Source of the DNA: Pyrofollis japonicus | GTDB lineage: Archaea; Thermoproteota; Thermoprotei_A; Sulfolobales; Pyrodictiaceae | Direction: 5' to 3' | Length of the DNA: 64,000 nucleotides | Assembly: GCF_033097485.1 (NCBI RefSeq) | Contig: NZ_AP028634.1 | Span: 921,126 to 985,125 of the forward strand | Translations under genes and position numbers: made by a program | Notes under the pieces: model-generated | What the model was told of the DNA's origin: nothing | Seen by the model: the letters and a program-made list of their open reading frames with translations, nothing else | Databases searched by the model: none | In this document: positions 5,819-62,945 of the stretch, piece by piece | Layout: every line of letters starts with the position of its first letter | Position numbering within the stretch: position 1 is the first letter of the stretch

Positions 5819-5886
5819 GGGCTTATGAGGAAGGCCCTGGGCTCTACCGAAACCCATGAGGAATAGGGGATGCCGGCCCGAGGCCC
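5819..5886 (+). ncRNA. Candidate box C/D guide RNA
   Basis: Symmetric C/D architecture. A 5' stem GGGCT (5819-5823) pairs with GGCCC (5882-5886, one wobble). Box C ATGAGGA is at 5825-5831, then a 15 nt guide, D' CCGA (5847-5850), a 5 nt spacer, C' ATGAGGA (5856-5862), a 15 nt guide and D CCGA (5878-5881). Both C boxes are identical and both D boxes carry the same substitution, which favours a real RNA over chance. It overlaps the first 17 bases of the JAMM-protein frame. I could not assign targets. Confidence 0.5.
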
Positions 5887-6634
5887 TCTGGAAACCGAGT
5901 TCGAGCACTTACTAAGCTTAGATAACTCAAAGAAAATACTCAATAAAATAGTGTGCAGAGGAGTGGCTTTCCACCTCCTCTCATATTATGAAGAGGATTG
6001 CTCACATAGGGCAAGGGTCGCTGTTGACGACAATAAAGACACAGTAATTATCTTTGACGAGCATAAATGCTGTACGGATAGTATTGATGCTTTTAGAAAC
6101 TACATCAGCAAAGCTATAATGGTGCCTATTAAGGAGTGCAACATAAAATGCTTAGAAAATGAGCCATGGTCTGCAAAAACCTATGATCATTTAAGCAAGG
6201 AAGCGGTATCGCTATTTATACAAGGATTTGGAAACTTGATGAGACAAGCAGCATCAACGGGCTATGAGTATTTCTTAATTATTGGGTGGAACGCCGAAGC
6301 CGCATATGGACGCGGAGGCGAAACACGAATATCACTACCGTCTATACCTGCCGTCATCATGGCACATACACATCCAAGTCCTTATTGTTATCCATCTGGC
6401 CCTGATATCGAATCAACAGCAGAGTTTCTCTCAGCAGGCGGCTTAGCAGAGCTAATATTTTCTACAAATTGCGTATCAGTTATCAGGCTAAGTAAGCCCC
6501 TACAAGAGGATGATTATTGGGCTTTAATCGAAATAGCCAAAGAAGTTAAGAAGGCAAAAGACGATTACTCCGGCTACATTAGAGCGATTAATAGGCTTAA
6601 CATGCTGCATACGATTGTGTTCGAGATAATGTGA
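5870..6634 (+). CDS. JAMM/MPN-motif protein (putative metalloprotease or deubiquitinase-like)
   Basis: Protein of 254 residues with a full JAMM signature near residues 165-180: HTHPSPYCYPSGPD fits HxHx10D, including the SxxD serine, and WNAEAA lies upstream as the likely catalytic glutamate region. In archaea JAMM proteins remove ubiquitin-like SAMP tags or act as C-terminal hydrolases. The rest is divergent, with an N-terminal 130 residues rich in Cys (CCTDS, KECNIKCLEN) that I do not recognise. The start ATG at 5870 lies inside a predicted guide RNA. GTG codons about 30 residues in are alternatives, so the start is uncertain. It stands alone and is convergent with apgM. Confidence 0.65.
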   Translation: MPARGPLETEFEHLLSLDNSKKILNKIVCRGVAFHLLSYYEEDCSHRARVAVDDNKDTVIIFDEHKCCTDSIDAFRNYISKAIMVPIKECNIKCLENEPWSAKTYDHLSKEAVSLFIQGFGNLMRQAASTGYEYFLIIGWNAEAAYGRGGETRISLPSIPAVIMAHTHPSPYCYPSGPDIESTAEFLSAGGLAELIFSTNCVSVIRLSKPLQEDDYWALIEIAKEVKKAKDDYSGYIRAINRLNMLHTIVFEIM

Positions 6635-6695
6635 CTATATCATTGGAGATAAGTAGATTAATCGCCTAGAGCGAAAAAGAATTGCTGGAAGCTAT

Positions 6696-6756
6696 GTGCT
6701 GACGTGGACCGGAGCTGACCCCTTTGCTAATGTGATGAAGCTTCGGGCGCTACTGA
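6696..6756 (+). ncRNA. Candidate box C/D guide RNA
   Basis: Box C GTGCTGA (6696-6702, one change from consensus), a 12 nt guide, D' CTGA (6715-6718), a 13 nt spacer, C' GTGATGA (6732-6738, perfect), a 14 nt guide and D CTGA (6753-6756). The D box runs 7 bases past the end of the oppositely transcribed apgM. No clear terminal stem is seen, which lowers confidence. The guides CGTGGACCGGAG and AGCTTCGGGCGCTA were not matched to an rRNA site from memory. Confidence 0.42.
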
Positions 6757-8051
6757 GAAATCCATAACCCCTTCTTGACAAGGTAGTTTTTGACCCAAGG
6801 AAGTAGTTCCCAGCCATGCTCAAGTTTTACCAATGCTTTGGAATCGCATACAATTTCATTAAATCTACCAATTTCGCCTTCTATCGCCGGGTTACTGAGC
6901 ATCCAGGGCACTGGGTCTCCGCTATGACTCTTGAGGCTCCAGGGCGTTGCATGGTCGGATGTAACGATGATAGCGGTCTCTTCGAGGTTTATGCTATCTA
7001 AGAGGGGCTGTACGAAGTATTCATCTATTAGTTCAATTGCTCTCTTCTTCTTATCAAAGCTACCATCGTGTCCAGGTTCATCGGGCCCTTTTAGATGAAT
7101 ATATGTGAAATCGTTCTCTCTTATTGCTTCTATGGCTTTTTCAAGCCGGTTAGGGAGGTCCTTCTCTAGGTTCCCGCTAGGAGGCTCAACAGTATAGATA
7201 TTCATGGCTGCTGCACGTGCAATACCTATTTCGACGGGCATTTCCGCTATGGCTGCCGCGCTTTTCACTCCTAGTATTGAAGACAGAGGCGGCATTTTAG
7301 GCATCTTATCGCCGGCATCTCGGAGGAGTAGAACGTTTGCTTTCAGTAATCCACGTTGCTCACGCATTTTGTTTACTTCATGTTTTTCTAATATTTCTAT
7401 TGTTTTTTCAATAAATTCATCAACAAGTTTACATGTATTATATGCCTCAGGTATATCACTGAGAGGCTTACATCGCGGCAATACCATATCTGGATTTTGA
7501 ACAGCGACTGAGACCTTGCCTTTTCTCACATATGCTGGATCTATGTTCTGTACCTCTGCACTGAGCCTATAGGTTTCGCTCCCCAGTATAACAACTGCTC
7601 TATGACCTATGGTAGCCCTCACAACCGCATATCCGTCAAGACTGAGCCTCATACCATCAAGGCTCGCTGCAAGCGCCTTGGCTTCCTCGCTGCTCAAGCT
7701 ACGTCCAACACGCCTATCTATTACCCTACGTGTCTTAGGGTCTATAGTTGCAAAGTTGGCCCTAAATGCGACTTCATAGCCTTCTCGAATACTTAGACCT
7801 ATACCTAATGCCTCGAGAGGGCCTCTTCCAGTATAGTATTTTTCTGGATCATATCCGAGCAGAGAAATTGTCGCAAGATCACTCTCTGGCGCTATTCCCG
7901 GTTCTACGGGATAATGAAAACCACAAACAGCATTCTTAGCCAATGTGTCAAGGCCTGGAGTCTTTGCCTCGCTCAGAGGCGTTTTGCCGTCCACAGGACG
8001 GTCGGCAGCACCATCTAGGATTAATAATACTAGCTTGTTTACGCTAGGCAA
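6750..8051 (-). CDS. apgM: 2,3-bisphosphoglycerate-independent phosphoglycerate mutase (archaeal)
   Basis: Interconverts 3- and 2-phosphoglycerate in glycolysis and gluconeogenesis. It has 433 residues of the alkaline-phosphatase superfamily. LVLLILDGAAD near the N-terminus supplies a metal-binding Asp. The catalytic serine lies in APESDLATISLLGYDP (about residue 57), followed by YYTGRGPLEALG. The C-terminal metal sites are KGPDEPGHDG and VTSDHATPW with a late His (SHSGDPVPW). The length is usual for aPGAM. It lies directly downstream of the HD-domain gene on the same strand (18 bp gap), so the two are probably co-transcribed. Confidence 0.96.
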   Translation of the reverse strand: MPSVNKLVLLILDGAADRPVDGKTPLSEAKTPGLDTLAKNAVCGFHYPVEPGIAPESDLATISLLGYDPEKYYTGRGPLEALGIGLSIREGYEVAFRANFATIDPKTRRVIDRRVGRSLSSEEAKALAASLDGMRLSLDGYAVVRATIGHRAVVILGSETYRLSAEVQNIDPAYVRKGKVSVAVQNPDMVLPRCKPLSDIPEAYNTCKLVDEFIEKTIEILEKHEVNKMREQRGLLKANVLLLRDAGDKMPKMPPLSSILGVKSAAAIAEMPVEIGIARAAAMNIYTVEPPSGNLEKDLPNRLEKAIEAIRENDFTYIHLKGPDEPGHDGSFDKKKRAIELIDEYFVQPLLDSINLEETAIIVTSDHATPWSLKSHSGDPVPWMLSNPAIEGEIGRFNEIVCDSKALVKLEHGWELLPWVKNYLVKKGLWISQ

Positions 8052-8069
8052 AAGGACTACACCGTTTGA

Positions 8070-8771
8070 CTAGCTATGTGTAAGCCTTTTTCGTTCTTTC
8101 TCCAAGAAGTCAAACGCAATAGTAAACGACTTGGCAATTGCATCCTCATATGGGAGGATCTCACTTCTAAGCATGTCTATGAATTCTTTCAATACTTTTA
8201 GTCTTCTATGAGCCTCTTGGCGAGAAACATCTAGACACATAAGGTCTGGGAGCTTGACTAATTTTTCCCATACATGTGCTAACGTGTCTGCAACCACTCG
8301 GCTCCTCATAGCGGACGTCTCTATAAGCCTATAGACACCGATGGCTCCTAAGGCGTCGAGCTTGTCAGCATCACTAACTATGCACGACTCCATACTTGAA
8401 GGTTTACCTCCTATACTAAAGCTATGTTCAAGAATAGCATCAATAACGTGTTTCTGCTTATCCCTACTTATTCCTACTTCTTCGAGAATAGGCTTTGCTA
8501 GTATAGCGCTTATCTCTGCATGATGGAGATTAAGATAGTCCTCAAACCCCCTACCAATATCATGCAATAATGATGCTAATATAACGACTTCTTCATCCAT
8601 ATTAACGTCTTGAAGCCTTTTAACCAAGTAGAGCGAGTTACATAAGACTCTTATCGTGTGTGGGAGGCCGTGAGATTCATCCATGCCCTGCATCATTAGT
8701 ACATATGCAACTATTTTTTTACACCAGCTGTAACGTATACATATATCCTCAAACATACTGCTACAATCCAT
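8070..8771 (-). CDS. HD-domain metal-dependent phosphohydrolase
   Basis: Protein of 233 residues. HD-family metal ligands are visible: H in DESHGLPHTIRV (about residues 31-38), HDIGRG (about 70) and a late Asp in SDADKLDALGAIG (about 127-139). The LHHAEIS and LEHSF histidines between them also fit the fold. Relatives hydrolyse nucleotides or phosphomonoesters, and the exact substrate cannot be told. The start is ATG at 8771. It overlaps neither neighbour and sits upstream of apgM in the same direction. Confidence 0.82.
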   Translation of the reverse strand: MDCSSMFEDICIRYSWCKKIVAYVLMMQGMDESHGLPHTIRVLCNSLYLVKRLQDVNMDEEVVILASLLHDIGRGFEDYLNLHHAEISAILAKPILEEVGISRDKQKHVIDAILEHSFSIGGKPSSMESCIVSDADKLDALGAIGVYRLIETSAMRSRVVADTLAHVWEKLVKLPDLMCLDVSRQEAHRRLKVLKEFIDMLRSEILPYEDAIAKSFTIAFDFLEKERKRLTHS

Positions 8772-8778
8772 ACGGGTA

Positions 8779-8854
8779 TCCCGATGAATGCTTCCGGCGG
8801 AGCTGATACCTACATAAGTGTATGGCGTGATGAACTCTTCGCTGTACTGAGGGG
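8779..8854 (+). ncRNA. Candidate box C/D guide RNA
   Basis: The gap between the HD gene and the VIT1-like gene holds a plus-strand C/D layout. The stem TCCC (8779-8782) pairs with GGGG (8851-8854). Box C is GATGA (8783-8787), D' CTGA (8803-8806), C' GTGATGA (8827-8833, perfect), then a 13 nt guide ACTCTTCGCTGTA and D CTGA (8847-8850). GTATACATATATCC near 8735-8748 is a plausible TATA element. The D'-C' spacer is 20 nt, longer than usual. The target is not identified. Confidence 0.6.
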
Positions 8855-8866
8855 CATTGAACCAGG

Positions 8867-9535
8867 CTAGACTACTGCTCCTATAAAGGCAAAGAATATT
8901 ACTGCACCGAGTCCTATTAAGGCAAGTCGCAGTCCGCTAATGATCGGATTCTCTCCGCTTATATGCCCGAGATATGCTCCAAGGGCAAACAATTCTCCAA
9001 TAATTATCGCTGCAGACGCATAGACAAGTAATGATATTCGCGCGCCGAACCCTAGAACTGCTGATATGATGAACGGCAATATTCCTATAAGGGGGAGGAT
9101 TATTGCTCCAAAGCCACTCCAGATAGCAACGTAGAGTGGGACAACACGCGCTGCACGTTCATATATGCTTCCCTTAAGTGAGTGAAGTACAGCTTTCTCA
9201 GTTTCACGTAGCTCTCTCAGTCTCTCGGCTCTTTCAGACATGTATGTTGCTATGAATCCACTGAAGAATCCCATAGCAAATGAAGCTCCTGCAACGCCTC
9301 CTATGTAGTTAGCAGGGTTGGTTGCTCCGCTGAGATAACTTCCGAGAATGACACCAAGGCTTGAGAGGAGCCCATCAAAACTATTAGTAATGAACATTCT
9401 ACGAGCAATGCTTCTTGCTTCAAGTATACGTGCGTATGTACTCATGCTTCTAAGTTGTGAGAGTAAGTCTATTACAGACCTAATGATTCTCTTGAACACG
9501 TCCTTGTTTGTCAAGGCTCCGCGTAGCACCTGCAA
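8867..9535 (-). CDS. VIT1/CCC1-family membrane transporter (Fe/Mn)
   Basis: Protein of 222 residues in the vacuolar iron transporter family, which exports or sequesters Fe2+ or Mn2+. The first helix carries the family signature RRMFITNSFDGLLSSLGVILG (about residues 47-67), and three or four further helices end with IGLGAVIFFAFIGAVV. The cytoplasmic segment after helix 2 is charged (YMSERAERLRELRETEKAVLHS) and corresponds to the shortened metal-binding domain of the family. The start is TTG at 9535 and is not well supported by a ribosome site, so a few residues may differ. Confidence 0.78.
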   Translation of the reverse strand: MQVLRGALTNKDVFKRIIRSVIDLLSQLRSMSTYARILEARSIARRMFITNSFDGLLSSLGVILGSYLSGATNPANYIGGVAGASFAMGFFSGFIATYMSERAERLRELRETEKAVLHSLKGSIYERAARVVPLYVAIWSGFGAIILPLIGILPFIISAVLGFGARISLLVYASAAIIIGELFALGAYLGHISGENPIISGLRLALIGLGAVIFFAFIGAVV

Positions 9536-9704
9536 CCTGATTCCTACTATCTGGTATAAAGCAGAGCACGTGCTTCTAGTTGAAGCGTAAAGGGCAAAGA
9601 ACCCAATTAGGGAAATTCACGAAGACCTTCAATAAAAACATTGTTGTATTTTAGATAATGTAGTGCTGGGTGTATTAAACCAACATGATCTCGTTTTCGT
9701 ACAA

Positions 9705-9929
9705 TCATCGCCCTTTTACACGCTTTATGTATTCTTCTTTCTCTATGACTATTTTTCCTGCACCGTCGCGGCGAACTATTATTAGTAAGTCGCTTTCTCG
9801 ATAGCCGCAACGGGGGCATCGATAATAATAGCGTATCTTCTTGGAACCATTCTCGCCAAACTCTATTTCGACTCTGTACTCCATTTTAACTCCACATCTT
9901 GGGCAAACCACTTCGCCATTACTTTTCAT
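9705..9929 (-). CDS. Small zinc-ribbon protein
   Basis: Protein of 74 residues with two CPRCG knuckles (about residues 9-13 and 38-42) separated by a beta-rich segment, VEIEFGENGSKKIRYYY. This is the four-cysteine zinc ribbon seen in TFIIS/RPB9-like and ribosomal proteins. The knuckle spacing of about 25 residues fits a C-terminal TFIIS-type ribbon. Its role is unknown. It reads away from moaA, with about 240 bp between the two start regions. Confidence 0.75.
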   Translation of the reverse strand: MKSNGEVVCPRCGVKMEYRVEIEFGENGSKKIRYYYRCPRCGYRESDLLIIVRRDGAGKIVIEKEEYIKRVKGR

Positions 9930-10172
9930 AGCTACTCACCACAGTTCACGTCCTGCTGGCCTTTCATTTACTCGTATCTCTTTGATTGAGTGACACCACG
10001 CTTTCCATTAAATACTAGTCTTCGAGTACGGCCAATATCTGTTTAACCCTTCATATGAACTAGGTGTAGAATGTGTAAGCGGAATATTTCAGCGCTGTTG
10101 ATATAGGGTTCTGGTGCCACTAGTCAGACACATGGTGGCTCTGCTCTGCTCTTTGACGCTTACGGCAGGCCT

Positions 10173-11231
10173 TTGACCAACTTACGAATAATGGTTACCG
10201 GTAGATGTAACTTTTCGTGTATTTTCTGCCACATGGAGGGCTACAAGGAATCTCATCTCCGAGAGATAGAGCTAAGTCTTGAAGAAATAGAGCTGTTAAA
10301 GGAAGCAGCTGATAGGCTAGATATCAAGGCGTTTAAAATTACAGGGGGTGAACCCACACTTCGTGAGGATCTTGTTGACATAGTACGTATACTAAAACGC
10401 AATAACGCATACGTATCTCTTACGACTAATGCATCACTACTTCATAAGCATTTACCTGGCATAGCTGATGCAGGTATTGACCACATAAATGTAAGTCTTC
10501 ACGCACTAGATGAGGAGAGATTTAGAAAGATAACCAGATCGTCTCTCTTTCGGAGAGTAATTGAAAACTTGAAACTTCTTAAGGATTATAATATACCTAT
10601 TAAGATCAATTTCGTCATACTGAGGGGGCTCAACGAGCAAGATATACCTAAGGTCATTGATCTCGCAGCAGATCTCAATGCAATGGTACAATTTATAGAG
10701 CTACACCCCGTAGGAAAGGCAATCAAAACCTTCAAAAACCACTACCTTCCCCGATGGCGCATTGTAGAAATGCTCGAGAATAGAATAATATCAATAGAGT
10801 ATAGGCTAGGGCTACACAACCGCCCCATAATTACACTAGATAATGGGGTCAGAGTAGAGCTTGTAGGACCTGTAGGAAATTACCTATTTTGTGCAGGCTG
10901 TACCAGAATAAGGGTTACTTATGATTTTAAGCTTTTACCGTGCTTAAATTGGAGGGGCGAACCCGTAGAGGTAAGGCCTCGCATCGCGAATGCCTCAACA
11001 CGTGAGGAAAAAGTGGAAAAAATAATTGAGGCAATACGTGAGGCAAATAGCCTTCGGAAACCATTTGTAATGTATCCGCTGGATGCAAAACTCTGGAAAC
11101 CAGGAAGGAAATGGAAAACAATGCGTCTTGGCCTCCCAAAAAGAGATGGAAGAATGATGTTTACAGGAAAAGATGGCATAAAACACTTAACAAAATACCT
11201 TGAAGAATGGGGGAAATACGCTCTTAGCTAA
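10173..11231 (+). CDS. moaA: MoaA-like radical SAM enzyme (GTP 3',8-cyclase)
   Basis: First enzyme of molybdopterin (tungstopterin) synthesis, converting GTP to a cyclic precursor. The N-terminal cluster CNFSCIFC begins at residue 13, and GGEPTLRED and INFVILRGLNEQD are typical MoaA blocks. The second cluster motif CAGCTRIRVTYDFKLLPC lies near residues 238-256. The first canonical start is TTG at 10173, but the family motif DxxGRPxTNLR is encoded just upstream (DAYGRPLTNLR, from 10155). The natural start may therefore be a CTG at 10146 with GGTGG about 7 nt before it. The family's C-terminal Gly-Gly is not present (it ends KYALS). No other moa genes are near. Confidence 0.85.
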   Translation: MTNLRIMVTGRCNFSCIFCHMEGYKESHLREIELSLEEIELLKEAADRLDIKAFKITGGEPTLREDLVDIVRILKRNNAYVSLTTNASLLHKHLPGIADAGIDHINVSLHALDEERFRKITRSSLFRRVIENLKLLKDYNIPIKINFVILRGLNEQDIPKVIDLAADLNAMVQFIELHPVGKAIKTFKNHYLPRWRIVEMLENRIISIEYRLGLHNRPIITLDNGVRVELVGPVGNYLFCAGCTRIRVTYDFKLLPCLNWRGEPVEVRPRIANASTREEKVEKIIEAIREANSLRKPFVMYPLDAKLWKPGRKWKTMRLGLPKRDGRMMFTGKDGIKHLTKYLEEWGKYALS

Positions 11232-11266
11232 CGCTTCTTGGCCCGGTACCTTCCTCTTGGAATAGC

Positions 11267-12193
11267 TTAGGAAAGTGCCATGAGGGCCTTCTCTAGTATT
11301 ATTACGAGGAACAGCATACCGAGATGCATATTTACCATCTTAAACGCTTTGAACGAAGTCTCCTTATCGCCTTTTTTATCAACATACTCTACTGCGAGAC
11401 TAAAGATGTGGGAAGACGCTAAGAGCCCATAAGCCAGTGATGCAACCCCCACTGCACCTAGAAGCCAAAGGGCTATAATCACGTGTGCTAATACGAGCGC
11501 ACCGAGTCCTATACCTGTGCCGACAGCTGTGGCATCAGCTACTACTGGCAACATTGGAACATTTGCAGCGGCGTAATCTTCTCGATAATATGAGGCTAGG
11601 AACCAGATATGGCTAGGAACCCATGCTGCAACGAGTAATGAAAACAGCACTGCAGGTGCAGTTATGGAGCTTGTTGCAGCGGCCCACCCACCTAGCGCGG
11701 GTGCTCCTCCTGCTACAGCACCCATGATTATGCTAAGCGGTGTTCGTCGTTTAAGAAGCAGGGTATATGCAATAATGTCGAAGAAGAATCCAACAAATAT
11801 GGCGAGACTATAGTAGACATTTACCAATAAAGCTCCCAGCACTAGCGAGATAATGAATAAGCTTATTGAGAGGTATAGAACAGATCTTGGTTTAACGAGG
11901 CCGCTTGGCAAGGGCCGCTTATTAGTACGTGCCATTAAAGCATCTATATCTCTGTCAAAATACATGTTAACAGCTGTAGTTGAGCCTATTGCCATATACC
12001 CTATTATCCATAACCATAGATGGGTTTCTATGGGTTTATGAAGGCCTCCACCCGCTATAAATGCAGTATACATTGAAAAGAGTAACAACATTGTTTGCTT
12101 AAACTTAGTCAATTCACCGATTACGTGCATCAGACTGGTCGACGCTGCTCTCCCTATTTTGTTCATTTGCACCGATCCTCCCGCACCATTCAT
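11267..12193 (-). CDS. ctaB: Protoheme IX farnesyltransferase (heme O synthase)
   Basis: UbiA-superfamily prenyltransferase of 308 residues that attaches a prenyl chain to heme B, making heme O for haem-copper oxidases. The polyprenyl-diphosphate site NMYFDRDIDALMARTNKRPLPSG spans about residues 78-100, and the second Asp-rich loop is YREDYAAANVPMLP (about 200-213). About eight hydrophobic helices fill the rest. Such a gene points to an oxygen- or nitrogen-oxide-respiring organism, but no oxidase genes are in the window. It stands alone on the minus strand. Confidence 0.93.
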   Translation of the reverse strand: MNGAGGSVQMNKIGRAASTSLMHVIGELTKFKQTMLLLFSMYTAFIAGGGLHKPIETHLWLWIIGYMAIGSTTAVNMYFDRDIDALMARTNKRPLPSGLVKPRSVLYLSISLFIISLVLGALLVNVYYSLAIFVGFFFDIIAYTLLLKRRTPLSIIMGAVAGGAPALGGWAAATSSITAPAVLFSLLVAAWVPSHIWFLASYYREDYAAANVPMLPVVADATAVGTGIGLGALVLAHVIIALWLLGAVGVASLAYGLLASSHIFSLAVEYVDKKGDKETSFKAFKMVNMHLGMLFLVIILEKALMALS

Positions 12194-12276
12194 TTTAGTA
12201 GTGCACCCCAGATTTCAAAAACAGTGATGCATGCAGCCTAAAATACCTTAAACATATGTTAATATTGGTGAGGATT

Positions 12277-12633: not shown

Positions 12634-12645
12634 GGAGGCCGAAAC

Positions 12646-12709
12646 TACGCGATGATGTGGGTAAGCGGTCACAGAGAATAGATGAAGACACTCCCATGGA
12701 CTGAGCATA
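12646..12709 (+). ncRNA. Candidate box C/D guide RNA
   Basis: Box C GCGATGA (12649-12655), D' CAGA (12672-12675), a 3 nt spacer, C' TAGATGA (12679-12685), a 15 nt guide and D CTGA (12701-12704). The flanks TACGC and GCATA can pair with one mismatch. Internal boxes are degenerate, so this is a weaker member of the set. It would be transcribed with, or processed from, the upstream hypothetical gene, since I see no separate TATA box. Confidence 0.4.
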
Positions 12710-12796
12710 TCTCATGTTACTGTTTTAAACGACAAAATCCTTCTATACATTCACCTAGATATTTTAACCATACTCCTGGAGTAAGGGTGGTAATAC

Positions 12797-13741: not shown

Positions 13742-13766
13742 ACTAATTGTAAAAACCAAGTAGGTG

Positions 13767-25140: not shown

Positions 25141-25200
25141 GGGATGTAGAGGCCGATTTATTCTGACCCTTTGAGTGATGATTGGAGACCTCGCTGAACC
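25141..25200 (+). ncRNA. Box C/D guide RNA
   Basis: Near-ideal spacing. A degenerate box C lies within GATGTAGA (25143-25150), followed by a 12 nt guide GGCCGATTTATT, D' CTGA (25163-25166), an 8 nt spacer, C' GTGATGA (25175-25181, perfect), a 12 nt guide TTGGAGACCTCG and D CTGA (25194-25197). A TATA box at the right distance supports independent transcription. The terminal stem is weak (TGG with CCG). Predicted 2'-O-methylation targets could not be placed from memory. Confidence 0.72.
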
Positions 25201-30259: not shown

Positions 30260-30329
30260 GGGGGATGATAGTAAATGGCCTCTACTGAAAAACAATAATA
30301 TTTGATGAAGCTTTAGGCCGTTGACCCCC
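30260..30329 (+). ncRNA. Box C/D guide RNA, likely 16S helix-20 guide
   Basis: The 5' stem GGGGG (30260-30264) pairs with CCCCC (30325-30329). Box C is GGGATGA (30262-30268, sharing the stem G's), D' CTGA (30285-30288), C' TTGATGA (30302-30308), then a 12 nt guide and D TTGA (30321-30324). The D guide contains GCTTTAGGCC, complementary to GGCCTAAAGC, which is the conserved archaeal 16S sequence near E. coli position 570. By the box D+5 rule the methylated base would be C570. The target match is from memory. Confidence 0.75.
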
Positions 30330-35138: not shown

Positions 35139-35205
35139 ATGGCCTCGGGGCCCGGCTGACTCCCATCATTATTTCAGTTCCGCCATAGGTTGTCCTCACC
35201 GGCAT
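35139..35205 (-). ncRNA. Candidate box C/D guide RNA
   Basis: Minus strand. Box C GTGAGGA (35193-35199), a 15 nt guide, D' CTGA (35174-35177), a 4 nt spacer, C' ATGATGG (35163-35169), a 14 nt guide and D CCGA (35145-35148). The flanks ATGCC and GGCCAT can pair with a one-base bulge. It is antisense to no gene and lies between two plus-strand genes. No clear TATA box is seen. Confidence 0.48.
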
Positions 35206-35796: not shown

Positions 35797-35865
35797 AGGG
35801 GATGAAGGAAGACTCCAATTATGAGCCTGGAGAGGCTATGAGTAAGCTCCGCCCCTCCTGACCCT
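35797..35865 (+). ncRNA. Candidate box C/D guide RNA
   Basis: The stem AGGG (35797-35800) pairs with CCCT (35862-35865). Box C is GATGA (35801-35805) and D CTGA (35858-35861). Inner boxes are degenerate (D' near ATGA, C' near CTATGAG). The D guide is GCTCCGCCCCTC. TAATTTACA at 35771-35779 is a TATA-like element at the right distance. It ends 2 bp before the zinc-finger gene that is transcribed the other way. Confidence 0.52.
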
Positions 35866-36783: not shown

Positions 36784-36845
36784 TCAGCTGGACTAGGATA
36801 CCTCATTGCACTAGCTTGTTGCTCGGTCCGGGTACATGTCATCAT
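36784..36845 (-). ncRNA. Candidate box C/D guide RNA
   Basis: Minus strand. Box C ATGATGA (36839-36845, perfect), a 12 nt guide CATGTACCCGGA, D' CCGA (36823-36826), a 16 nt spacer, C' ATGAGGT (36800-36806), a 12 nt guide ATCCTAGTCCAG and D CTGA (36784-36787). Both guides are exactly 12 nt. No terminal stem is evident, so confidence is moderate. Confidence 0.48.
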
Positions 36846-44278: not shown

Positions 44279-44337
44279 CTGGATCAGCGTAGCTCAGCCT
44301 CTTCACTATTCTGCCTCCGTTTATTCATCACATCCAG
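44279..44337 (-). ncRNA. Box C/D guide RNA, tRNA D-arm guide
   Basis: Minus strand, 59 nt. The stem CTGGA (44333-44337) pairs with TCCAG (44279-44283). Box C GTGATGA is at 44325-44331, then an 11 nt guide, D' CAGA (44310-44313), C' GTGAAGA (44300-44306), a 12 nt guide GGCTGAGCTACG and D CTGA (44284-44287). The D guide is the exact complement of CGTAGCTCAGCC, the archaeal tRNA 5'-D-arm consensus. By the D+5 rule it would direct 2'-O-methylation of G10. All elements are present, which makes this the best-supported RNA of the window. Confidence 0.8.
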
Positions 44338-44416
44338 TCTCTCTCTTAAGGACTATACTTGAGATTCATAACTTTTACCACTATTCTAGTCACAATGCTG
44401 AGGTAGTAGGGTATCC

Positions 44417-44424
44417 AATAAAAG
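44417..44424 (+). promoter_or_regulatory. TATA box of hairpin RNA at 44450
   Basis: AATAAAAG, placing the expected RNA start at about 44443-44450, exactly where the hairpin RNA begins. Confidence 0.55.
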
Positions 44425-44449
44425 GGAACGTGATACAGTATCAAGAATT

Positions 44450-44509
44450 GGCCCCGTGACAGCTCCGTAGCGGAGCAGAGTGATCGGGGCCGGGACGTAT
44501 TCACCGCGC
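44450..44509 (+). ncRNA. Hairpin RNA with kink-turn and 16S-antisense tail (possible H/ACA-type guide)
   Basis: An outer stem GGCCCCG (44450-44456) pairs with CGGGGCC (44485-44491), and an inner hairpin is GCTCCG-TAG-CGGAGC (44462-44476). Between them TGACA and AGAGTGAT place U-U and tandem G-A pairs as in an L7Ae kink-turn. Directly after the stem GGGACGTATTCACCGCGC (44492-44509) is the exact complement of the archaeal 16S sequence just before its universal 1392-1406 site. Kink-turn plus rRNA complement suggests an H/ACA-like guide, but no ACA box and only a partial 5' guide (CAAGAA) are seen. A TATA box fits. Confidence 0.6.
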
Positions 44510-45291: not shown

Positions 45292-45354
45292 AGCCGATGA
45301 TTCGTGGCCGCCTAAGCTGATCGAAATGATGAGTCTTTTACGGGTTGAGGCTCA
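45292..45354 (+). ncRNA. Box C/D guide RNA
   Basis: The stem GAGCC (45292-45296) pairs perfectly with GGCTC (45350-45354). Box C is GATGA (45297-45301), then a 16 nt guide, D' CTGA (45318-45321), a 5 nt spacer, C' ATGATGA (45327-45333, perfect), a 12 nt guide GTCTTTTACGGG and D TTGA (45346-45349). It starts 14 bp after the phosphoesterase stop, so it may be processed from that mRNA. Its 3' stem overlaps the convergent guide RNA at 45348. Confidence 0.72.
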
Positions 45355-45415
45355 GTCAGCCGCCACAACTTCATCGTATTTTACTCGCCTATGTCGGGAT
45401 GGTCATCACAGCCTC
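45348..45415 (-). ncRNA. Box C/D guide RNA, convergent with the previous one
   Basis: Minus strand. The stem GAGGC (45411-45415) pairs with GCCTC (45348-45352). Box C GTGATGA is at 45403-45409 (perfect). A degenerate D' lies near 45384-45388. C' ACGATGA is at 45371-45377 and D CTGA at 45353-45356, with a second CTGA at 45357-45360. AAATATAG at 45441-45448 (TATATTT on this strand) lies about 26 bp before the RNA start. The layout stem-T-GTGATGA is the same as in the tRNA guide at 44279. Confidence 0.7.
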
Positions 45416-54803: not shown

Positions 54804-54880
54804 AATTCTTTGCTTAGATACGAATAAACAATTAGATGAAATATTATTTTATACATGTTTTTAGATAGCTAGATGGTTTG

Positions 54881-56212: not shown

Positions 56213-56255
56213 CGAGTAGTCTACTCGGAGAGTGGTTGGTCTAGTAAGCTTAACG

Positions 56256-56585
56256 CTACGAATTACTGGATTCTATGCTTGATAAGTCCTTTGCATTACT
56301 CATGCGTAAATGTGTGATGCTTTTAACCGGTTTATCGGTTGCGAGGACCCGCAAAGCACCCATGTATGCCTTTTCAACTATGTCATAGGTTACGGGTATG
56401 CCTATATCATCCTCCATTCTCCGCAGAAGCCAGTATGCATCTACTATGCTATGCCACTCACCAGCCTTTCGAATAAGTATATCCCTAGCTTTTTCCTCTG
56501 CAATAGAGAATCGTGGGTCTACATAATCTTTAGACCTCTTAGCCTCGTCTGTATGCTTAAACGAACTCACTTCGCTGAGCCCCAA
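56256..56585 (-). CDS. Hypothetical helical protein upstream of glyA
   Basis: Protein of 109 residues that I do not recognise, helical ([39 protein letters not shown]). TTG start at 56585. It is 43 bp upstream of glyA on the same strand and could be co-transcribed. Confidence 0.5.
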
Positions 56586-56780
56586 GTAATACCTTTAATT
56601 ATACCTCTGCGGTTAATTTGGTGTTCCACTCGGCTAAAGGTACTACCGGAAACGAACGTAAGAATTCCCCGTGGATGCCCACTCTCCCTATTTTCATTTC
56701 TAATGATTGCCTTGGCTGGGTTATTGGGGGCTCAGCATCTTAAGAGCTAATTCGCTCAGTACTTACACCGGGGTCTCACT

Positions 56781-57203
56781 GTGTCGGCAAGCCTAGGGTC
56801 AATTAACGTCTCAACACATGATGTCGGGACACACATTGAAATCGAAATCGGCGCAGCCGTAGATGTCGAGATAATTGTATATGGTGGTTTAGATCCTTTA
56901 ACAGATGAACTCGTTGAAAATGCGAAGAAGGCCTCTGAGAAACTCTTCAAGGAATACGGGATAGATGCCATAGTTATTCCTAGAACAGTTTACTGGGACA
57001 TATTTACACAATACATACCAGCATCTGATACACTGCCTCTGCTCGTAATTAACGGTAGAGAAGTTGCAAGGGGCAGAAGCCTAGCCGTAGAGGAGATAGT
57101 CGATATAGCGCTGGAAATGCTCGGTATTAAGGAGCGCGAAAAAGCACTACCTTTTATTGGAAAGAGAAGCAGCGACATTCTCCAAGCAGCAATTACTGAA
57201 TAG
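56781..57203 (+). CDS. Thioredoxin-fold protein without redox cysteines
   Basis: Protein of 140 residues. DVEIIVYGGLDPLTDELVEN (about residues 28-47), a long helix, then LPLLVINGREVARGRSLAVE (about 96-115) and a final helix give a thioredoxin-like fold with GGLDPLT where CXXC would be. It is a paralogue of the gene at 28683. GTG start at 56781. The first 25 residues are an extra N-terminal segment. The 3' end overlaps the convergent PfkB gene by 57 bp. Confidence 0.56.
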   Translation: MSASLGSINVSTHDVGTHIEIEIGAAVDVEIIVYGGLDPLTDELVENAKKASEKLFKEYGIDAIVIPRTVYWDIFTQYIPASDTLPLLVINGREVARGRSLAVEEIVDIALEMLGIKEREKALPFIGKRSSDILQAAITE

Positions 57204-58103
57204 GAAGCGTTTACTCGCAGCAATATGCTCCTTAAAGTGTTTGGCGCACGAGGCTCTGGCCACAACTCCGTGTTTTTCAAGCAGTGTTAATATGCACGAA
57301 GTCGCCGAGGTAGCAGCTAATAGTGCCTCAGTAAAGTCCATTCCGCTATAAATAGCATAAAGTATGAGTGTAGCAAGAATATCTCCTGCACCTACAGAGT
57401 AACCCGATTTTAGCAAAGGCTCAATACTTAAACATACTCCGTTATCCGCGGCAACAAGCCCAGCAGAACCCATGGTTAGTACTACTCTAATGCCTCTCCT
57501 TACGAGAATTCTCGTTGCGGTGGTAGCGGCTTCAATGTTGTTTGCGAAGTCTTCTAGGCTGAACTTAGCTATTACACAATTAGACGAACTCAGCACGATG
57601 GAAGACAGTACGGAAAGAGCAGCCTCGAACGTGTTAATGACTTCACTGTCTTCTAGCTTTAGTCTCGAAAACCCTTGAATATCAACTAGCGTGCAGCCAT
57701 GGGAGTTTATTACTTTGAGCATGTCAGAAGTCGTGTACTCCCATAATAAGGGCGAGAACAGCGCAAAACTCGATTCCTGTGAAACAACGATGCTTTTGTA
57801 CTCCTTTCCGAGAAGTTTTATTTTTCGTTCATCATTTTGAACGTCTATTTTAAAAATTAATGTATGGTTGTCTATTTTGACGGGTTTTTTGCTAGTTGGA
57901 TTAAGATATTCTATTAGTGCTAAACTGCTTTCAGCATTATCTGGGATATTTAAGATTATTCTATAAGTTGCTCCTATAGCATGCAGTGCAAGTGATGCAT
58001 AAAATGGTGGGCCGCCCTTAGTGAACTTCGCTCCCACCACATCGATTGTTGGAGTTGAATAAATGTCTAGTAAAAAGGTTTTATTCTTCTTCATCCTCTT
58101 CAT
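57147..58103 (-). CDS. PfkB-family sugar/nucleoside kinase
   Basis: Protein of 318 residues with the ribokinase fold. LLDIYSTPTIDVVGAKFTKGG opens it, then GGPPFYASLALHAIGA (about residues 30-45) and the catalytic GYSVGAGDILATLILYAI (about 235-252), whose GAGD holds the base. The substrate is uncertain (sugar or nucleoside). ATG at 58103, inside the 3' end of the zinc-finger gene; GAGGAAGAAT supplies its ribosome site. Confidence 0.82.
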   Translation of the reverse strand: MKRMKKNKTFLLDIYSTPTIDVVGAKFTKGGPPFYASLALHAIGATYRIILNIPDNAESSLALIEYLNPTSKKPVKIDNHTLIFKIDVQNDERKIKLLGKEYKSIVVSQESSFALFSPLLWEYTTSDMLKVINSHGCTLVDIQGFSRLKLEDSEVINTFEAALSVLSSIVLSSSNCVIAKFSLEDFANNIEAATTATRILVRRGIRVVLTMGSAGLVAADNGVCLSIEPLLKSGYSVGAGDILATLILYAIYSGMDFTEALLAATSATSCILTLLEKHGVVARASCAKHFKEHIAASKRFLFSNCCLENVAASLSNKR

Positions 58104-58353
58104 ATTCCTCTTCTTGCTCTTCTACTCTAGTCCGAGGCATGATTGTTTGTTTCTCAAGCCTCTTGGTATGTGCTAATAAATGAAATATAAGGTCTTCAGC
58201 TGTGAAGAAATATGCTGCCTTTTTCTCCTCGCCGCATATAGGGCATAGAAGTAGCCCTGTCTCCTTATCCCTTTTGACTTTAAGTCTCACGCCATGACTC
58301 TCTATTATTATATCCTCCCAGCTAGGGGTCCATTGAAGCGCCATTGGCATCAC
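58081..58353 (-). CDS. C2H2-like zinc-finger protein with acidic tail
   Basis: Protein of 90 residues. A single finger CPICGEEKKAAYFFTAEDLI followed by FHLLAHTKR gives C-x2-C...H-x3-H (about residues 37-63). The tail is almost all acidic (VEEQEEEYEEDEEE). GTG start at 58353 overlaps the stop of the reductase gene, and its own 3' end overlaps the PfkB start, so all three form a tightly coupled unit. Confidence 0.66.
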   Translation of the reverse strand: MMPMALQWTPSWEDIIIESHGVRLKVKRDKETGLLLCPICGEEKKAAYFFTAEDLIFHLLAHTKRLEKQTIMPRTRVEEQEEEYEEDEEE

Positions 58354-59714
58354 ATCTTCTCTGCAAGTTTTTGCTCAAACTCGTTGAATATTCTCTCTGT
58401 CTCCTTTATCCATTCACTTAGCTGCGCTGGGCTCTCCGGATAGTTCATGTAGTGATCCCTAGCCTTTTTCATGTAGTCGCCGACGAGTTTGAGCTTTGCG
58501 AGAAGGCTTGGTCTCCCAAGACCCCTAATTATTATCTTTGCTTTCTCAAGCGTACTTATGCGGAGTTCGCCAACATTGCTTGTATATAGCACGTCCTCCT
58601 CTGGAAGAAGCTTCTTCTCCATACCGTATCGTATATCGTCGTTGGGTAAACGCTGCAAGAACCTCCTGAAGACGTCTAGGGCTGCTTGCTTGGCTCCTAC
58701 ATTTTGCATATAGTTTATGTTTAGGCTCCATAAGCCTTCTTCGCTGAAATCGTTCCTGTTATATGCTTCTTCGATTGCTTGTGCAGCGTAGTATGCTGCT
58801 CGGAACGCGTAGCCCATACCGCCTCCGTGTACAGGGTTGACAGTGTATCCTGCATCGCCTATGGCAACTATGCCTGGTCCAACAAGTGTATTAGACGGCC
58901 TACGCGTTGGGAGAGGTGCACCGGCGGCATTGTGCACATGATACTTCTTTTGGAGAAGTGGATGTTTAGTTAGCTTCTCTTTGTATATAGTCATTGGGTT
59001 CGGATAGCCCATGCCACCTTGTACGCCGAGGCCTACGTTAACACTCTTCGCTGATTCCGGGAAGTACCACCAGTATCCTCCTGGTGCGATTTCTTGGTCA
59101 AGATATATCCGTATCACATCCGGCTCATCTATCTTGTAATCTTCGTATTCTATAACCTCGCGGTACGCTATATTCGTATCTCTTGGGTCTATGGGCTCAT
59201 AGATGGGCCATTCGTGTGGAAGCTTGTTTCTCAGCACTCTTGAGAAGCCCGTTGCCTCGATAACAATGCTGGATCTGAGTTCGGCAACCTTATCTGCTAT
59301 CTTGGCACGTACTCCCACAACCTTGTTATCTTTTATTATCGGCTCTAGAACCTTCGAGTTGAAGAATACATCGACGTTATCTTTGTCAATGACGCTTTCA
59401 ACAAGCCATTTTCCAAACGCATTACGGTTAATGATGTAGCCTTCTCCGTGAACCCTATACCTTGTAGTCTCACCTGGCGAGTATATGTCAATAGCCTTGA
59501 CATGGTTCTTTATTACTGTGCTTGGAGGCTCGGGGAGACCTGCTTCACGTGGATGATGTGCTCCCAGTGCATCGCCGCATGGTTTTCCCCAAAGGGTGTT
59601 AAGGTTGCGCCAATCAATTGCTGCGACATTAAAGCCTTTACGTGCCAAGTGCCAGAGTGCAACTGTGCCGGCTGGCCCGAGACCCGCTATAATCACGTCG
59701 TACTTTTCGCGCAC
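58350..59714 (-). CDS. Geranylgeranyl reductase (archaeal lipid saturation)
   Basis: FAD enzyme of 454 residues that saturates the isoprenoid chains of archaeal lipids. N-terminal FAD fold DVIIAGLGPAGTVALWHLAR (about residues 6-25), KPCGDALGAHH (about 44-54) and the second FAD motif GIVAIGDAGYTVNPVHGGGM (about 278-297) are all present. The central IAPGGYWWYFPES block is typical of this family. GTG start at 59714. A divergent paralogue lies at 32330. Confidence 0.88.
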   Translation of the reverse strand: MREKYDVIIAGLGPAGTVALWHLARKGFNVAAIDWRNLNTLWGKPCGDALGAHHPREAGLPEPPSTVIKNHVKAIDIYSPGETTRYRVHGEGYIINRNAFGKWLVESVIDKDNVDVFFNSKVLEPIIKDNKVVGVRAKIADKVAELRSSIVIEATGFSRVLRNKLPHEWPIYEPIDPRDTNIAYREVIEYEDYKIDEPDVIRIYLDQEIAPGGYWWYFPESAKSVNVGLGVQGGMGYPNPMTIYKEKLTKHPLLQKKYHVHNAAGAPLPTRRPSNTLVGPGIVAIGDAGYTVNPVHGGGMGYAFRAAYYAAQAIEEAYNRNDFSEEGLWSLNINYMQNVGAKQAALDVFRRFLQRLPNDDIRYGMEKKLLPEEDVLYTSNVGELRISTLEKAKIIIRGLGRPSLLAKLKLVGDYMKKARDHYMNYPESPAQLSEWIKETERIFNEFEQKLAEKM

Positions 59715-59856
59715 ACGACCACCTCTAAGCGGTTAAGGCGCTAAGGGTTTCCGAGCTTTTCACACTCTGTTATCGGGTGTTTATTAGTGCTAGGTCTCAT
59801 ACTCTATGCAATGTAGCATTCTTTCAACACGTTAATATGTTAGTGATTACGCCGTC

Positions 59857-59896
59857 TCGGGAAAAGTAGTCTGAATATTAGGGGCTGTTCTCCCGA
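59857..59896. promoter_or_regulatory. Inverted repeat around the Hsp20 TATA region
   Basis: TCGGGA (59857-59862) and TCCCGA (59891-59896) flank the AT-rich GAATATTA element in front of the small heat-shock gene. Possible operator for a heat-shock regulator. Confidence 0.45.
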
Positions 59897-59919
59897 AATA
59901 CCTCTGGAGAGTGGTAGAG

Positions 59920-60480
59920 ATGAGTTCTCCTTGGAGACGCAGATTTGGGTTCGGGCTTGGCGACGTATTTGATGAGATAGAGAGAACAATAAGGGAAATG
60001 GAACGCTTTGTTGCAAGGATGATGGAAGAGTTCGAGGCACGGGCACTATCACCGTCACTAGAATCCAAGGGTGAAGTACGCGGCCCCATAGTGTATGGCG
60101 TAAGAATAACCATAGGTCCCGACGGACAGCCGATAATAGAGGAGTTCGGCAACGTTAAGCGCATTGGTAGGAAAGCCGTTGTAGAAGAAGTCGTTGAGCC
60201 ACTAGTAGATGTTATAGAGGAGAAGGACAAAGTTACGGTTATCGCGGAAGTACCAGGTGTAGATAAGGATAAGATTAAGATAAAGGTCAAAGATAACAAG
60301 CTCATAATAAGAGCGGAGGACAAGGATAGGAAGTACTACAAGGAAATAGAGTTACCTGCAGAGGTAAAACCGGAAACTGCTAAGGCGAAGTATAGGAATG
60401 GTATACTTGAAATAACTTTTGAGAAGAAAAAACCCGAAAAAGAGGAAGAGGAAGAAGGCTTAGAAATAAAAGTCGAGTAA
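59920..60480 (+). CDS. Small heat-shock protein (Hsp20/alpha-crystallin)
   Basis: Chaperone of 186 residues. The N-terminal region is aromatic and charged (RRFGFGLGDVFDEIERTIRE). The alpha-crystallin domain spans about residues 85-165 (VIEEKDKVTVIAEVPGVDKD, IRAEDKDRKYYKEIELPAEV, YRNGILEITFEKK). The C-terminal tail ends in an I-x-V motif (EIKVE) used for oligomer contacts. ATG at 59920 chosen, with GGAGAG 9 nt upstream. A GTG at 59911 is less likely. Confidence 0.92.
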   Translation: MSSPWRRRFGFGLGDVFDEIERTIREMERFVARMMEEFEARALSPSLESKGEVRGPIVYGVRITIGPDGQPIIEEFGNVKRIGRKAVVEEVVEPLVDVIEEKDKVTVIAEVPGVDKDKIKIKVKDNKLIIRAEDKDRKYYKEIELPAEVKPETAKAKYRNGILEITFEKKKPEKEEEEEGLEIKVE

Positions 60481-60490
60481 GCATTATGAG

Positions 60491-61072
60491 TTAGTCCCGT
60501 CTTTTTTCATTAAGTGGCTCGGTTCTAGCTTTCGGAGATACTATTGTGCTAACTCCTTCGGGATCCTCTATTATGACGGTAAAGTCTTCTTGTCCCTCTT
60601 TTGCCCGCTTTATCCATTCAAGGAGTTCATTGCATTTCTCCTTACTTGCTTCGGGGTCTTTACAAGCAAGTTCTATTGCTTCGCGGAATCTTTCAAGAAG
60701 CCCCTCCACGGTAGTTATGAAGCCTTGCGAGGCAGGCCCTGGGTGCATCTCAAGGCCTTTTTCTGGAATAATTATGGATGCTGATGAAGCCCTCACAACT
60801 AACGCGTTGAGGTCGTCCTCGTCTTCTACTTTGAGTATTATTCTTTGAGGTGGCTTGGCCTCGGCAAGTCTTACATCATTATACTTATATCCGCATTTCT
60901 CGCACTTGCCAGTCGTGAGTATTATCTTTCCAACAAGCGGTAGATCGTATAAGTAATCAGTTATTCGGAGAGACTTTGATCCACAAATTGGGCATGTTAC
61001 TACTGCTTCTCCTAGCTTTACTAATTTTGTGCTGTTATTTTTCAATAATTCGTCTTGCTGCTTGGTACTCAT
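60491..61072 (-). CDS. ZPR1-type zinc-finger protein
   Basis: Protein of 193 residues with the ZPR1 zinc finger CPICGSKSLRITDYLYD...CEKCGYKYNDVRLAE (about residues 27-70) and the A-domain that follows (VEDEDDLNALVVRASSASII, LEMHPGPASQGFITTVEGLL). Eukaryotic ZPR1 binds eEF1A. The archaeal single-copy form is probably a translation-related chaperone. ATG at 61072, with GGTG 6 nt upstream; an in-frame GTG at 61081 is part of that site. Confidence 0.88.
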   Translation of the reverse strand: MSTKQQDELLKNNSTKLVKLGEAVVTCPICGSKSLRITDYLYDLPLVGKIILTTGKCEKCGYKYNDVRLAEAKPPQRIILKVEDEDDLNALVVRASSASIIIPEKGLEMHPGPASQGFITTVEGLLERFREAIELACKDPEASKEKCNELLEWIKRAKEGQEDFTVIIEDPEGVSTIVSPKARTEPLNEKRRD

Positions 61073-61274
61073 TTCTTGCACCTATGTTTTTCACTATTAG
61101 AGCTTGAACTAATACGTATTTGTAATATCTGAAAGTATTACCCTTACCTCTTTCATCCTGTTTGATTTAAAAATTCTCACATGTTATTGAGCGTTTTTAT
61201 GACAATTATTTAAAAACTTCCCTATATTTTAGGCTCAACGTAATATCATATGCTAGGAGGTACGTGGTGAAAGC

Positions 61275-61601
61275 ATGGCAAGAATTAATAGAGTGCAGCG
61301 CCCTGTCTTTGACATAGTGATTCCTTCACCTAAGAAAGTGGTTAGCATAAAGCTTGAAGTCGACCTCCTTGAGGAGATAGACCGGTTGTGGCGGAGCCTA
61401 GGCTATACGTCGCGTAGCGAGTTCATACGCGAGGCATTGATTTATTACATGCAAGTGGTTAGCAGTATATCCTTTGAATCTACTCAGGAAGTAAGTGTTA
61501 TCGAGAATAATCCTGCAATGAAAATAGACGATAATGATGAAGATAAAAAGGTTAAGGACGGAGCATTGGTAGTTCTTGATACTGCTACCGATATAGCCTA
61601 G
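61275..61601 (+). CDS. Ribbon-helix-helix (CopG-like) regulator
   Basis: Protein of 108 residues with an RHH fold at about residues 22-57: VVSIKLEVDLLEEIDRLWRS, YTSRSEFIREALIYYM. The C-terminal half is acidic (KIDDNDEDKKVKDGA) and probably flexible. ATG at 61275, preceded by GGAGGT and GGTGA. A strong TATA element (ATTTAAAAA near 61209) lies upstream. Confidence 0.85.
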   Translation: MARINRVQRPVFDIVIPSPKKVVSIKLEVDLLEEIDRLWRSLGYTSRSEFIREALIYYMQVVSSISFESTQEVSVIENNPAMKIDDNDEDKKVKDGALVVLDTATDIA

Positions 61602-61611
61602 GCGGTTTCCG

Positions 61612-62007
61612 TTATTTTCGCGTTCCTATCTTAGAGAGGAGTTCCTGTAGGACTTCTCTATATGTGCGTGCACATTGCTCGAAGTCCGATATTATTTTCT
61701 GAATAACTTTTTCCGGGTCTTGTACGTAGTATTTGTATTTTGGTCTTCCTGCGCCTCCCTTCTTTTCGCGTGTTCTTGAAACGAATCCGATCTCAACGAG
61801 CTTTGTTAGGCTTCTATTAACGGTGGCCTTGCTTAGCTTAAGTTTTTCTGCAAGTTCGTCTACTGTGTATTCTTTGCCTTTGAGTAGTTCCACTAATATT
61901 GCTGTATCTGTTTCGCTTAGATCGTAGCAGAAGCGTAGTCCCTCTACTATGCTTGCCTCTCTCCCTGTAGGAAGTCTGAGCCTTATTTCTTCGAGGCTTG
62001 CCGACAT
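61612..62007 (-). CDS. Winged-helix transcription regulator (TrmB/MarR-like)
   Basis: Protein of 131 residues. The winged helix lies at about residues 25-95 (YDLSETDTAILVELLKGKEY, VDELAEKLKLSKATVNRSLT, GFVSRTREKKGGAGRPKYKY) with a C-terminal helix that probably pairs dimers. Convergent with the RHH gene (10 bp between stops). ATG at 62007 after AAGGGGA. Confidence 0.78.
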   Translation of the reverse strand: MSASLEEIRLRLPTGREASIVEGLRFCYDLSETDTAILVELLKGKEYTVDELAEKLKLSKATVNRSLTKLVEIGFVSRTREKKGGAGRPKYKYYVQDPEKVIQKIISDFEQCARTYREVLQELLSKIGTRK

Positions 62008-62077
62008 GTTAGTTCCCCTTTAAGCTAGTTTATTCGCCATTTTTGATAATATGGTTAGACTATTTATTATCTTTTTC

Positions 62078-62632
62078 TCAACTAGTTACTAACGCAGCGA
62101 TTATTGGCGTAATAAAAGCTTCAACAAAGGCCGCGATGAAAAGTAACACGGAAACTGTAAGGAGACCTTTTAACGTCTTGGCTAAAAGCGTTTTTCCGGC
62201 CCTATTTTTCTTATTAATAGAGAAAGGTAATTGAATTCCGAGAAAGGCGGCATAGAGCATTGCTGGTATCTCTATTACTCCGTGCGGTAGGAGGAGAGAT
62301 AGTACTGTAAGGATAGGTATATTATTCTTAAGTGCAAGCGCTATTACCGTGCCAACTGCGTAGCCGTTTATCCAGACCTGGTAGAATCCAAGCAGTATAG
62401 TTAAAGAAAATATAAAGATAATTAACGATACTACTATATTATTTAAATATATTGATATAAATTCCCAAAATGCGGGTAAGGTGTTAACTATGTTTAGGTA
62501 TTTGTTTTCTTTAATAAGCTCAGCATAGGGATGCGAAAGCCCCATTATTGCTCCGATTATGTAGGCTAACGTTATAGAAGCCGCCAATAGTACTTTAAAA
62601 ATGGCGCTACTTGGCTTCATGTGTTTTGGCAC
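62078..62632 (-). CDS. SpoIIM-family membrane protein
   Basis: Protein of 184 residues with four or five membrane helices. The family motif LPHGVIEIPAMLYAAFLG (about residues 118-135) is clear, and FYQVWINGYAVG lies in the preceding loop. Function in archaea unknown; bacterial SpoIIM works with peptidoglycan hydrolases, which does not apply here. ATG at 62632. Confidence 0.78.
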   Translation of the reverse strand: MPKHMKPSSAIFKVLLAASITLAYIIGAIMGLSHPYAELIKENKYLNIVNTLPAFWEFISIYLNNIVVSLIIFIFSLTILLGFYQVWINGYAVGTVIALALKNNIPILTVLSLLLPHGVIEIPAMLYAAFLGIQLPFSINKKNRAGKTLLAKTLKGLLTVSVLLFIAAFVEAFITPIIAALVTS

Positions 62633-62717
62633 CGCAAGAATACAGAATAAACTCGCAACATAATATAGTATTTACCAGGACCTATCATAAGAAGAGAATA
62701 TGAGAAGCTAAGCAGCC

Positions 62718-62776
62718 GTGATGAACGATTCCGGGCCGAGGATCAACATTCCTATGAAGAACCGTGTGAGGACTGA
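62718..62776 (+). ncRNA. Candidate box C/D guide RNA
   Basis: Box C GTGATGA (62718-62724, perfect), an 11 nt guide, D' CCGA (62736-62739), a 14 nt spacer, C' ATGAAGA (62754-62760), a 12 nt guide ACCGTGTGAGGA and D CTGA (62773-62776). No terminal stem is visible, but both guides have good length. It lies in the gap between the SpoIIM gene and the TatD-like gene. Confidence 0.5.
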
Positions 62777-62873
62777 TTCATATCTTCATTACTTCCATGC
62801 ATATCTTCGGAACTCTATAGCCAAAAAAGTAGTCTAAAATGACGCGCTGGCATGGAAATGGAATAATGCTTGT

Positions 62874-62945
62874 CTTGTGATGATGCCCCTACACTTATTG
62901 ACCCTGGGTGCTCCAGGGTATGATGAAGTGGTCCTTCGCTGAAAG
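62874..62945 (+). ncRNA. Box C/D guide RNA with an internal hairpin
   Basis: Box C GTGATGA (62877-62883) and C' ATGATGA (62920-62926) are perfect. D' is TTGA (62898-62901) and D CTGA (62939-62942), with a 14 nt and a 12 nt guide. Between D' and C' lies a perfect 7 bp hairpin ACCCTGG-GTGCT-CCAGGGT (62901-62919) in place of the usual loop. The terminal stem is only CTT/AAG. TCTAAAATG at 62833-62841 is a plausible TATA element. Confidence 0.62.

Follow-up and report, generated by a model that had tools for sequence, protein, structure and literature searches.

Fourteen probable box C/D sRNA genes in a guide-rich region of the Pyrofollis japonicus chromosome, and a candidate K-turn RNA complementary to 16S rRNA

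Archaeal box C/D small RNAs (sRNAs) are known in sets of 128 in Ignicoccus hospitalis and 127 in Methanopyrus (PMC4644070), and groups of two or three of their genes have been reviewed (PMC7994747). H/ACA RNAs have a kink-turn (K-turn) stem of 10 layers (PMC4652768). The stretch analysed here, hereafter the window, comprises 64,000 nucleotides (positions 921126-985125) of the 2,005,174-base chromosome of Pyrofollis japonicus (Pyrodictiaceae). P. japonicus is a deep-sea hyperthermophile. Judged from sequence and its comparison, fourteen loci in the window are almost certainly box C/D sRNA genes of this archaeon; individually they are ordinary members of a known family. Beyond them we propose, with the chances evenly balanced, that an L7Ae-type K-turn hairpin followed by 14-18 nucleotides (nt) antisense to 16S GCGGUGAAUACGUCCC represents an undescribed Sulfolobales RNA family present in six GTDB families, acting on the small-subunit 3' domain as an rRNA-folding chaperone or one-armed guide and, separately, that the C/D genes are held in a conserved chromosomal domain.

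The initial annotation had listed fourteen candidate coordinates under a title that spoke of about twelve. At all fourteen, the boxes C (RUGAUGA), D' (CUGA), C' and D (CUGA) follow one another on the named strand in the order that the annotation had read, with guides of 10-16 nt between them and 48-70 nt from box to box. The guide lengths that it gave, about 11-16 nt, hold for most guides, the maximum by our box model being 17. Some loci have degenerate boxes (TGAGGA/CCGA), yet these are kept across species. We scored the window with a box-weight model with spacing limits, trained on these fourteen loci and their relatives. At 24 bits or more it returned exactly 14 matches, all of them the listed loci, against 1.2 in dinucleotide shuffles, so the proposed refutation, that such patterns are no commoner than in shuffled sequence, failed. 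There were 9 matches at 29 bits or more against 0.17 in shuffles, and shuffled windows yielded 0.3 at 27 bits or more. When the model was trained with one family left out at a time, 13 of the 14 loci kept scores at which shuffles give 0-0.7 matches per 64 kb, and an untrained consensus gave 10 window matches at 24 or more against 0.5 in shuffles. Since the box model found no additional conserved C/D-like match in the window down to 18 bits, nothing obvious appears to have been missed. An Rfam scan gave C/D matches below the gathering score only. Two other search tools were set aside: a covariance model built from MAFFT-aligned sRNAs was too specific to its own training guides and was replaced by the box-weight model, and a strict two-gap C/D pattern was over-stringent across the family and of no use.

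The strongest check is conservation. In orthologous regions from four congeners, every one of the fourteen loci has counterparts in 2-4 of the four. Identity to the window copy is 91% in box C, 81% in the D' guide, 87% in D', 89% in C', 91% in the D guide and 94% in D, against 33% in the linker, 36% in the 5' flank and 49% in the 3' flank. Conserved boxes and guides alternating with variable linker and flanks make a pattern that C/D guide RNAs would show and other elements would not. This alternation also bears on the idea that box-like words simply arose by chance in intergenic DNA. The boxes are short and degenerate, and the untrained consensus at thresholds of 14-18 shows no excess over shuffles; the excess at higher thresholds, the syntenic orthologues in another genus, the complementarity of the guides to targets and, above all, conservation that is limited to boxes and guides make that idea vanishingly improbable, and we regard it as ruled out by the conservation pattern.

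Guides were compared with the organism's own 16S and 23S ribosomal RNA (rRNA) and with 21 transfer RNAs (tRNAs), roughly half of its tRNA set, and a Watson-Crick pair was demanded 5 positions upstream of the box (the N+5 rule). Complementarity in this register is present: 10 of the 28 guides reached p<0.025 against shuffled guides, where 1.4 were expected, and 2 reached p<0.05 in a reversed-guide control. Fibrillarin and Nop5 are encoded side by side at 1470.5-1472.1 kb, and the genome has two L7Ae-family genes as well. The box C/D reading of the initial annotation thus draws support from anatomy, conservation, in-register complementarity and the presence of the protein machinery. By analogy with the known family, the fourteen sRNAs would be transcribed, assembled into ribonucleoproteins and used for methylation: each would fold into C/D and C'/D' K-turns that recruit L7Ae first and Nop5 and fibrillarin after it. 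The sequence ahead of D or D' would pair with rRNA or tRNA, and fibrillarin would methylate the target nucleotide that faces position 5 upstream of the box.

Roughly half of the guides lack a significant match to rRNA or tRNA in this set, and at the loci listed at 6696, 25141 and 62874 neither guide reaches p<0.05 within it. Some loci could therefore be C/D-type RNAs that do not guide methylation, such as orphan guides, RNA chaperones or regulators. Across seven species about one third of sRNAs lack an rRNA match (PMC4644070), which counts for this possibility; sRNAs commonly combine one active with one orphan guide (PMC7994747), which counts against it, as do the conservation of the unmatched guides and the chance of targets in 5S rRNA or the other tRNAs. 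We consider it a minority prospect, though a real one, and prefer to read the loci as methylation guides.

The initial annotation had called the set dense, and the density in the window is indeed some 3-4 times that of the remaining chromosome. With a GC-tolerant model applied to 1.04 Mb of sampled stretches (52% of the chromosome), the window carried 19.5 C/D matches above shuffle per 100 kb, and its flanks (880-921 and 985-1060 kb) carried 16.1; elsewhere the figure fell with rising GC, from 8.3 in low-GC stretches through 4.9 in middle ones to 2.6 in high-GC ones, a gradient that persists under this model. By extrapolation the genome would hold about 110-130 C/D genes, close to the counts for Ignicoccus hospitalis and Methanopyrus. 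Outside the window the genes clump with p=0.0009, or 0.003 when weighted by the length outside open reading frames (ORFs). Because the total is ordinary and the clumping significant, it is the placement of the genes, not their number, that stands out. From about 5.9 kb to its end the window is syntenic in Pyrodictium abyssi, where 12 of the 14 C/D genes lie at matching places (11 by blastn, the gene at 62877 by the box model). The syntenic block, which is low in GC there too, contains 14 matches over 80 kb, compared with 16 over 300 kb elsewhere. In the sampled stretches of Pyrolobus fumarii the window's genes are scattered, so it is Pyrodictium that supports a conserved cluster.

The window had been picked for looking dense, and a genome total of 110-130 predicts only about 4 genes per 64 kb, as if the local density were produced by the reader's choice of window. 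The flanks, which that reader never saw, are nearly as dense, the clumping outside the window is significant and the P. abyssi block repeats the excess, all of which makes such an ascertainment effect improbable. Regional clustering of this kind is moderately novel: we found no description of such a guide-rich chromosomal domain in the literature searched, most subscription papers lying outside the search. Both strands carry the genes, which are interspersed with housekeeping genes (CysRS, LeuRS, SerRS, NMD3, Pelota-like), and no convincing promoters of their own were seen, upstream TATA matches being at most weakly enriched. A single operon is disfavoured for these two reasons. Most likely, a stable block of core genes, low in GC, has kept its guide genes over the long term, and each RNA would be processed from neighbouring transcripts.

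Several points weigh against reading the window as a cluster of guide genes, or qualify that reading. By boxes alone the locus listed at 35797 is weak: with its family left out of training, its score is level with 2.8 shuffle matches per 64 kb, and it was accepted as real because it is conserved in four congeners. The G/C terminal stem that the annotation had seen in several candidates proved a weaker feature: 32% of copies and 15% of shuffles have an unbroken run of 4 or more terminal pairs. It is clear in some RNAs (5825, 44284 and 45294) and weak in others, and its enrichment is modest overall. Within the 16S, 23S and tRNA set no significant target was obtained for, among others, the D' guides of 12646, 44279 and 62874 and both guides (D'/D) of 25141. 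The densities come from sampled stretches and from a box model by which unusual variants may go undetected, and the cause proposed for the clustering is an inference.

A search of the window for rRNA-like pieces surfaced another element at 44450-44509(+). It consists of a K-turn hairpin (44450..44491(+)) reading GGCCCCG-UGAC-GCUCC..GGAGC-GUGAU-CGGGGCC, followed at once by GGGACGUAUUCACCGCGC, a tail (44492..44509(+)) that is an 18-nt perfect complement of the organism's own 16S 1329-1346. The K-turn has UGAC on its 5' side and GUGA on its 3' side (GAUGA in most relatives), and the fold has z=-2.5. A pattern that excludes 16S itself matched 35 of 229 Thermoproteia genomes in six families (f1, f3, f4, f6, f9 and f10), and the control gave one match in all. 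We read 30 relative loci, one of which ends at a contig edge; most of the others have a K-turn hairpin immediately 5' of the tail. Of the 25 distinct stems, 17 retain 7 or all 8 of the pairs and covary, every layer shows at least 2 Watson-Crick pair types, and GAUGA lies exactly 8 nt 5' of the tail in 16. Most relatives have an 8-nt stem plus [GA]A..GAUGA, giving 10 layers above the pocket with compensated stem layers; L216, L219, L222-L224 and L241 fit a strict 8-pair stem poorly. The 16S segment complementary to the tail is universal. In some genomes of family f9 the tail is CACCCACAC, for which the complementary 16S would read GUGUGGGUGAAUACG.

The element has no match in Rfam. A coding sequence was ruled out by 1-nt indels and covarying stems. 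A gene-specific leader was rejected for the wider family, as beyond close relatives no neighbour matches window genes; outside the Pyrodictiaceae the gene neighbours differ. It is not a box C/D RNA, having no D box and, in the relatives read, no CUGA after the antisense. Nor is it a canonical H/ACA RNA, for want of a 5' guide and an ANA box: for a 5' guide that would pair on the downstream side of the target uridine, the mean longest duplex was 3.82 against 3.81 when shuffled; neither a lower stem nor an ANA/ACA box at 14-15 nt from its closing pair was found, and no upstream complement was seen by eye. We infer that the RNA would bind L7Ae and base-pair with the 3' domain of pre-16S rRNA, serving either as a chaperone or as a one-armed guide.

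The catalogue of C/D genes begins with 5825..5881(+), with boxes ATGAGGA/CCGA/ATGAGGA/CCGA, whose D guide is predicted to target 23S G2229 (12 base pairs (bp), p=0.002); it is conserved in genomes G003 and G004 and in Pyrodictium abyssi. The listed ATG of the ORF 5870-6634 (RadC/JAB-like), at 5870, falls inside this D guide; probably the real start lies downstream, or the genes overlap. For 6696..6756(+), recognised by congener conservation and the box model and with a P. abyssi orthologue, the D guide possibly targets 16S G534 (p=0.08). The congener-conserved 8781..8850(+) appears to be a double guide, D' for 23S G1483 (p=0.04) and D for G1458 (p=0.002), sites 25 nt apart. Also conserved in congeners, 12649..12704(+) has weak Rfam sR43/sR17 matches and a D guide for 16S U52 (p=0.04). 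The sRNA at 25141..25197(+), for which no significant target was obtained, is recognised by congener conservation, the box model and orthologues in Pyrolobus fumarii (G007) and P. abyssi, and that at 30262..30324(+), compared in congeners and P. abyssi, would target 16S C527 through D (p=0.03).

On the opposite strand, the congener-conserved 35145..35199(-) has a D guide for the anticodon-stem region of tRNA-Ile/Phe (10-11 bp, p=0.027). At 35799..35861(+), D' is predicted to target 16S G924 (p=0.005) and D 23S G672 (p=0.01) or 16S 903, near G924. The D guide of 36784..36845(-), seen in congeners and P. abyssi, fits A21 (gene numbering) in the D-loop of tRNA-Gly (11 bp, p=0.005), and that of 44284..44331(-) fits G10 of tRNA-Ile/Met/Arg with 12 perfect bp (p=0.002); the latter sRNA matches Rfam sR2 at E=0.0028, below the gathering score. 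A strong C/D sRNA with guides taagagggtct / gcgccggataatg occurs in three congeners (L014 13755-13820, L021 6085-6150, L026 8154-8219) and at P. abyssi 854090(-), and appears to have been lost from the window genome at about 44335-44449. The gene at 45294..45348(+), compared in congeners and P. abyssi, has a D guide for 23S U3014 (p=0.002) and a 3' stem that overlaps the next gene, 45352..45409(-); this convergent gene, with a P. abyssi comparison, has a D guide for 16S C479 (E. coli C522, in the 530 loop; p=0.037). The 3' terminal stems of the convergent pair (45294-45409) overlap in GGCTCAGTCAGCC, and both genes match in the related loci L112 and L114 and in P. abyssi. The last two genes are in tandem and were both compared in congeners and P. 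abyssi: the D guide of 62718..62776(+) would target the wobble C34 of tRNA-Val(CAC) (gene position 36; p=0.007), and that of 62877..62942(+) possibly 23S G1666 (p=0.07).

Elsewhere on the chromosome, GC content is a mosaic of 41-57% in the sampled 20-kb stretches, C/D density being higher where GC is low (Spearman -0.55). A second C/D cluster lies at 1452-1468 kb (L081), with 7 matches of at least 27 bits in 20 kb, directly upstream of nop5-fibrillarin and near rRNA genes. In each of two head-to-head C/D pairs, at 1029380-1029489 and 1459204-1459317, the C boxes lie only some 5 nt apart.

With these genes the C/D methylation-guide repertoire comes to include Pyrofollis and, by way of orthologues, Pyrodictium, and concrete sites are predicted: 23S G2229 and G1458/G1483, 16S G924 and C527, tRNA G10 and tRNA-Val C34. 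The conserved, low-GC, guide-rich domain raises the question of how archaeal chromosomes keep guide genes together. The part most deserving experiment is the K-turn/anti-16S RNA, which, if our reading is true, would be an archaeal pre-rRNA-binding RNA that is neither a standard C/D nor a standard H/ACA guide.

In box order, spacing and length the fourteen loci resemble the archaeal box C/D sRNAs of the Pyrobaculum, Sulfolobus, Ignicoccus and Methanopyrus sets and Rfam sR2 and sR43, as they do in having double guides to close rRNA sites, tRNA guides that include the wobble C34 and the conserved D-stem, and genes near or overlapping ORF ends. They differ from Rfam C/D families in that none reaches a gathering score, and from known archaeal groups in being regionally clustered beyond two or three genes (PMC7994747). 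The K-turn RNA resembles H/ACA and H/ACA-like RNAs in its stem of 10 layers, made up of two G.A and either 8 pairs or 7 plus U.U, with the rRNA complement straight after it, whereas it lacks a lower stem, a 5' guide that would pair with 16S and a conserved ANA at 14-15 nt, and its antisense of 14-18 nt is unusually long; the ANA box and lower stem are also missing in some known H/ACA-like RNAs. If it acts as a chaperone or one-armed guide, it would be comparable in principle to the eukaryotic snoRNAs U3, U14 and snR30.

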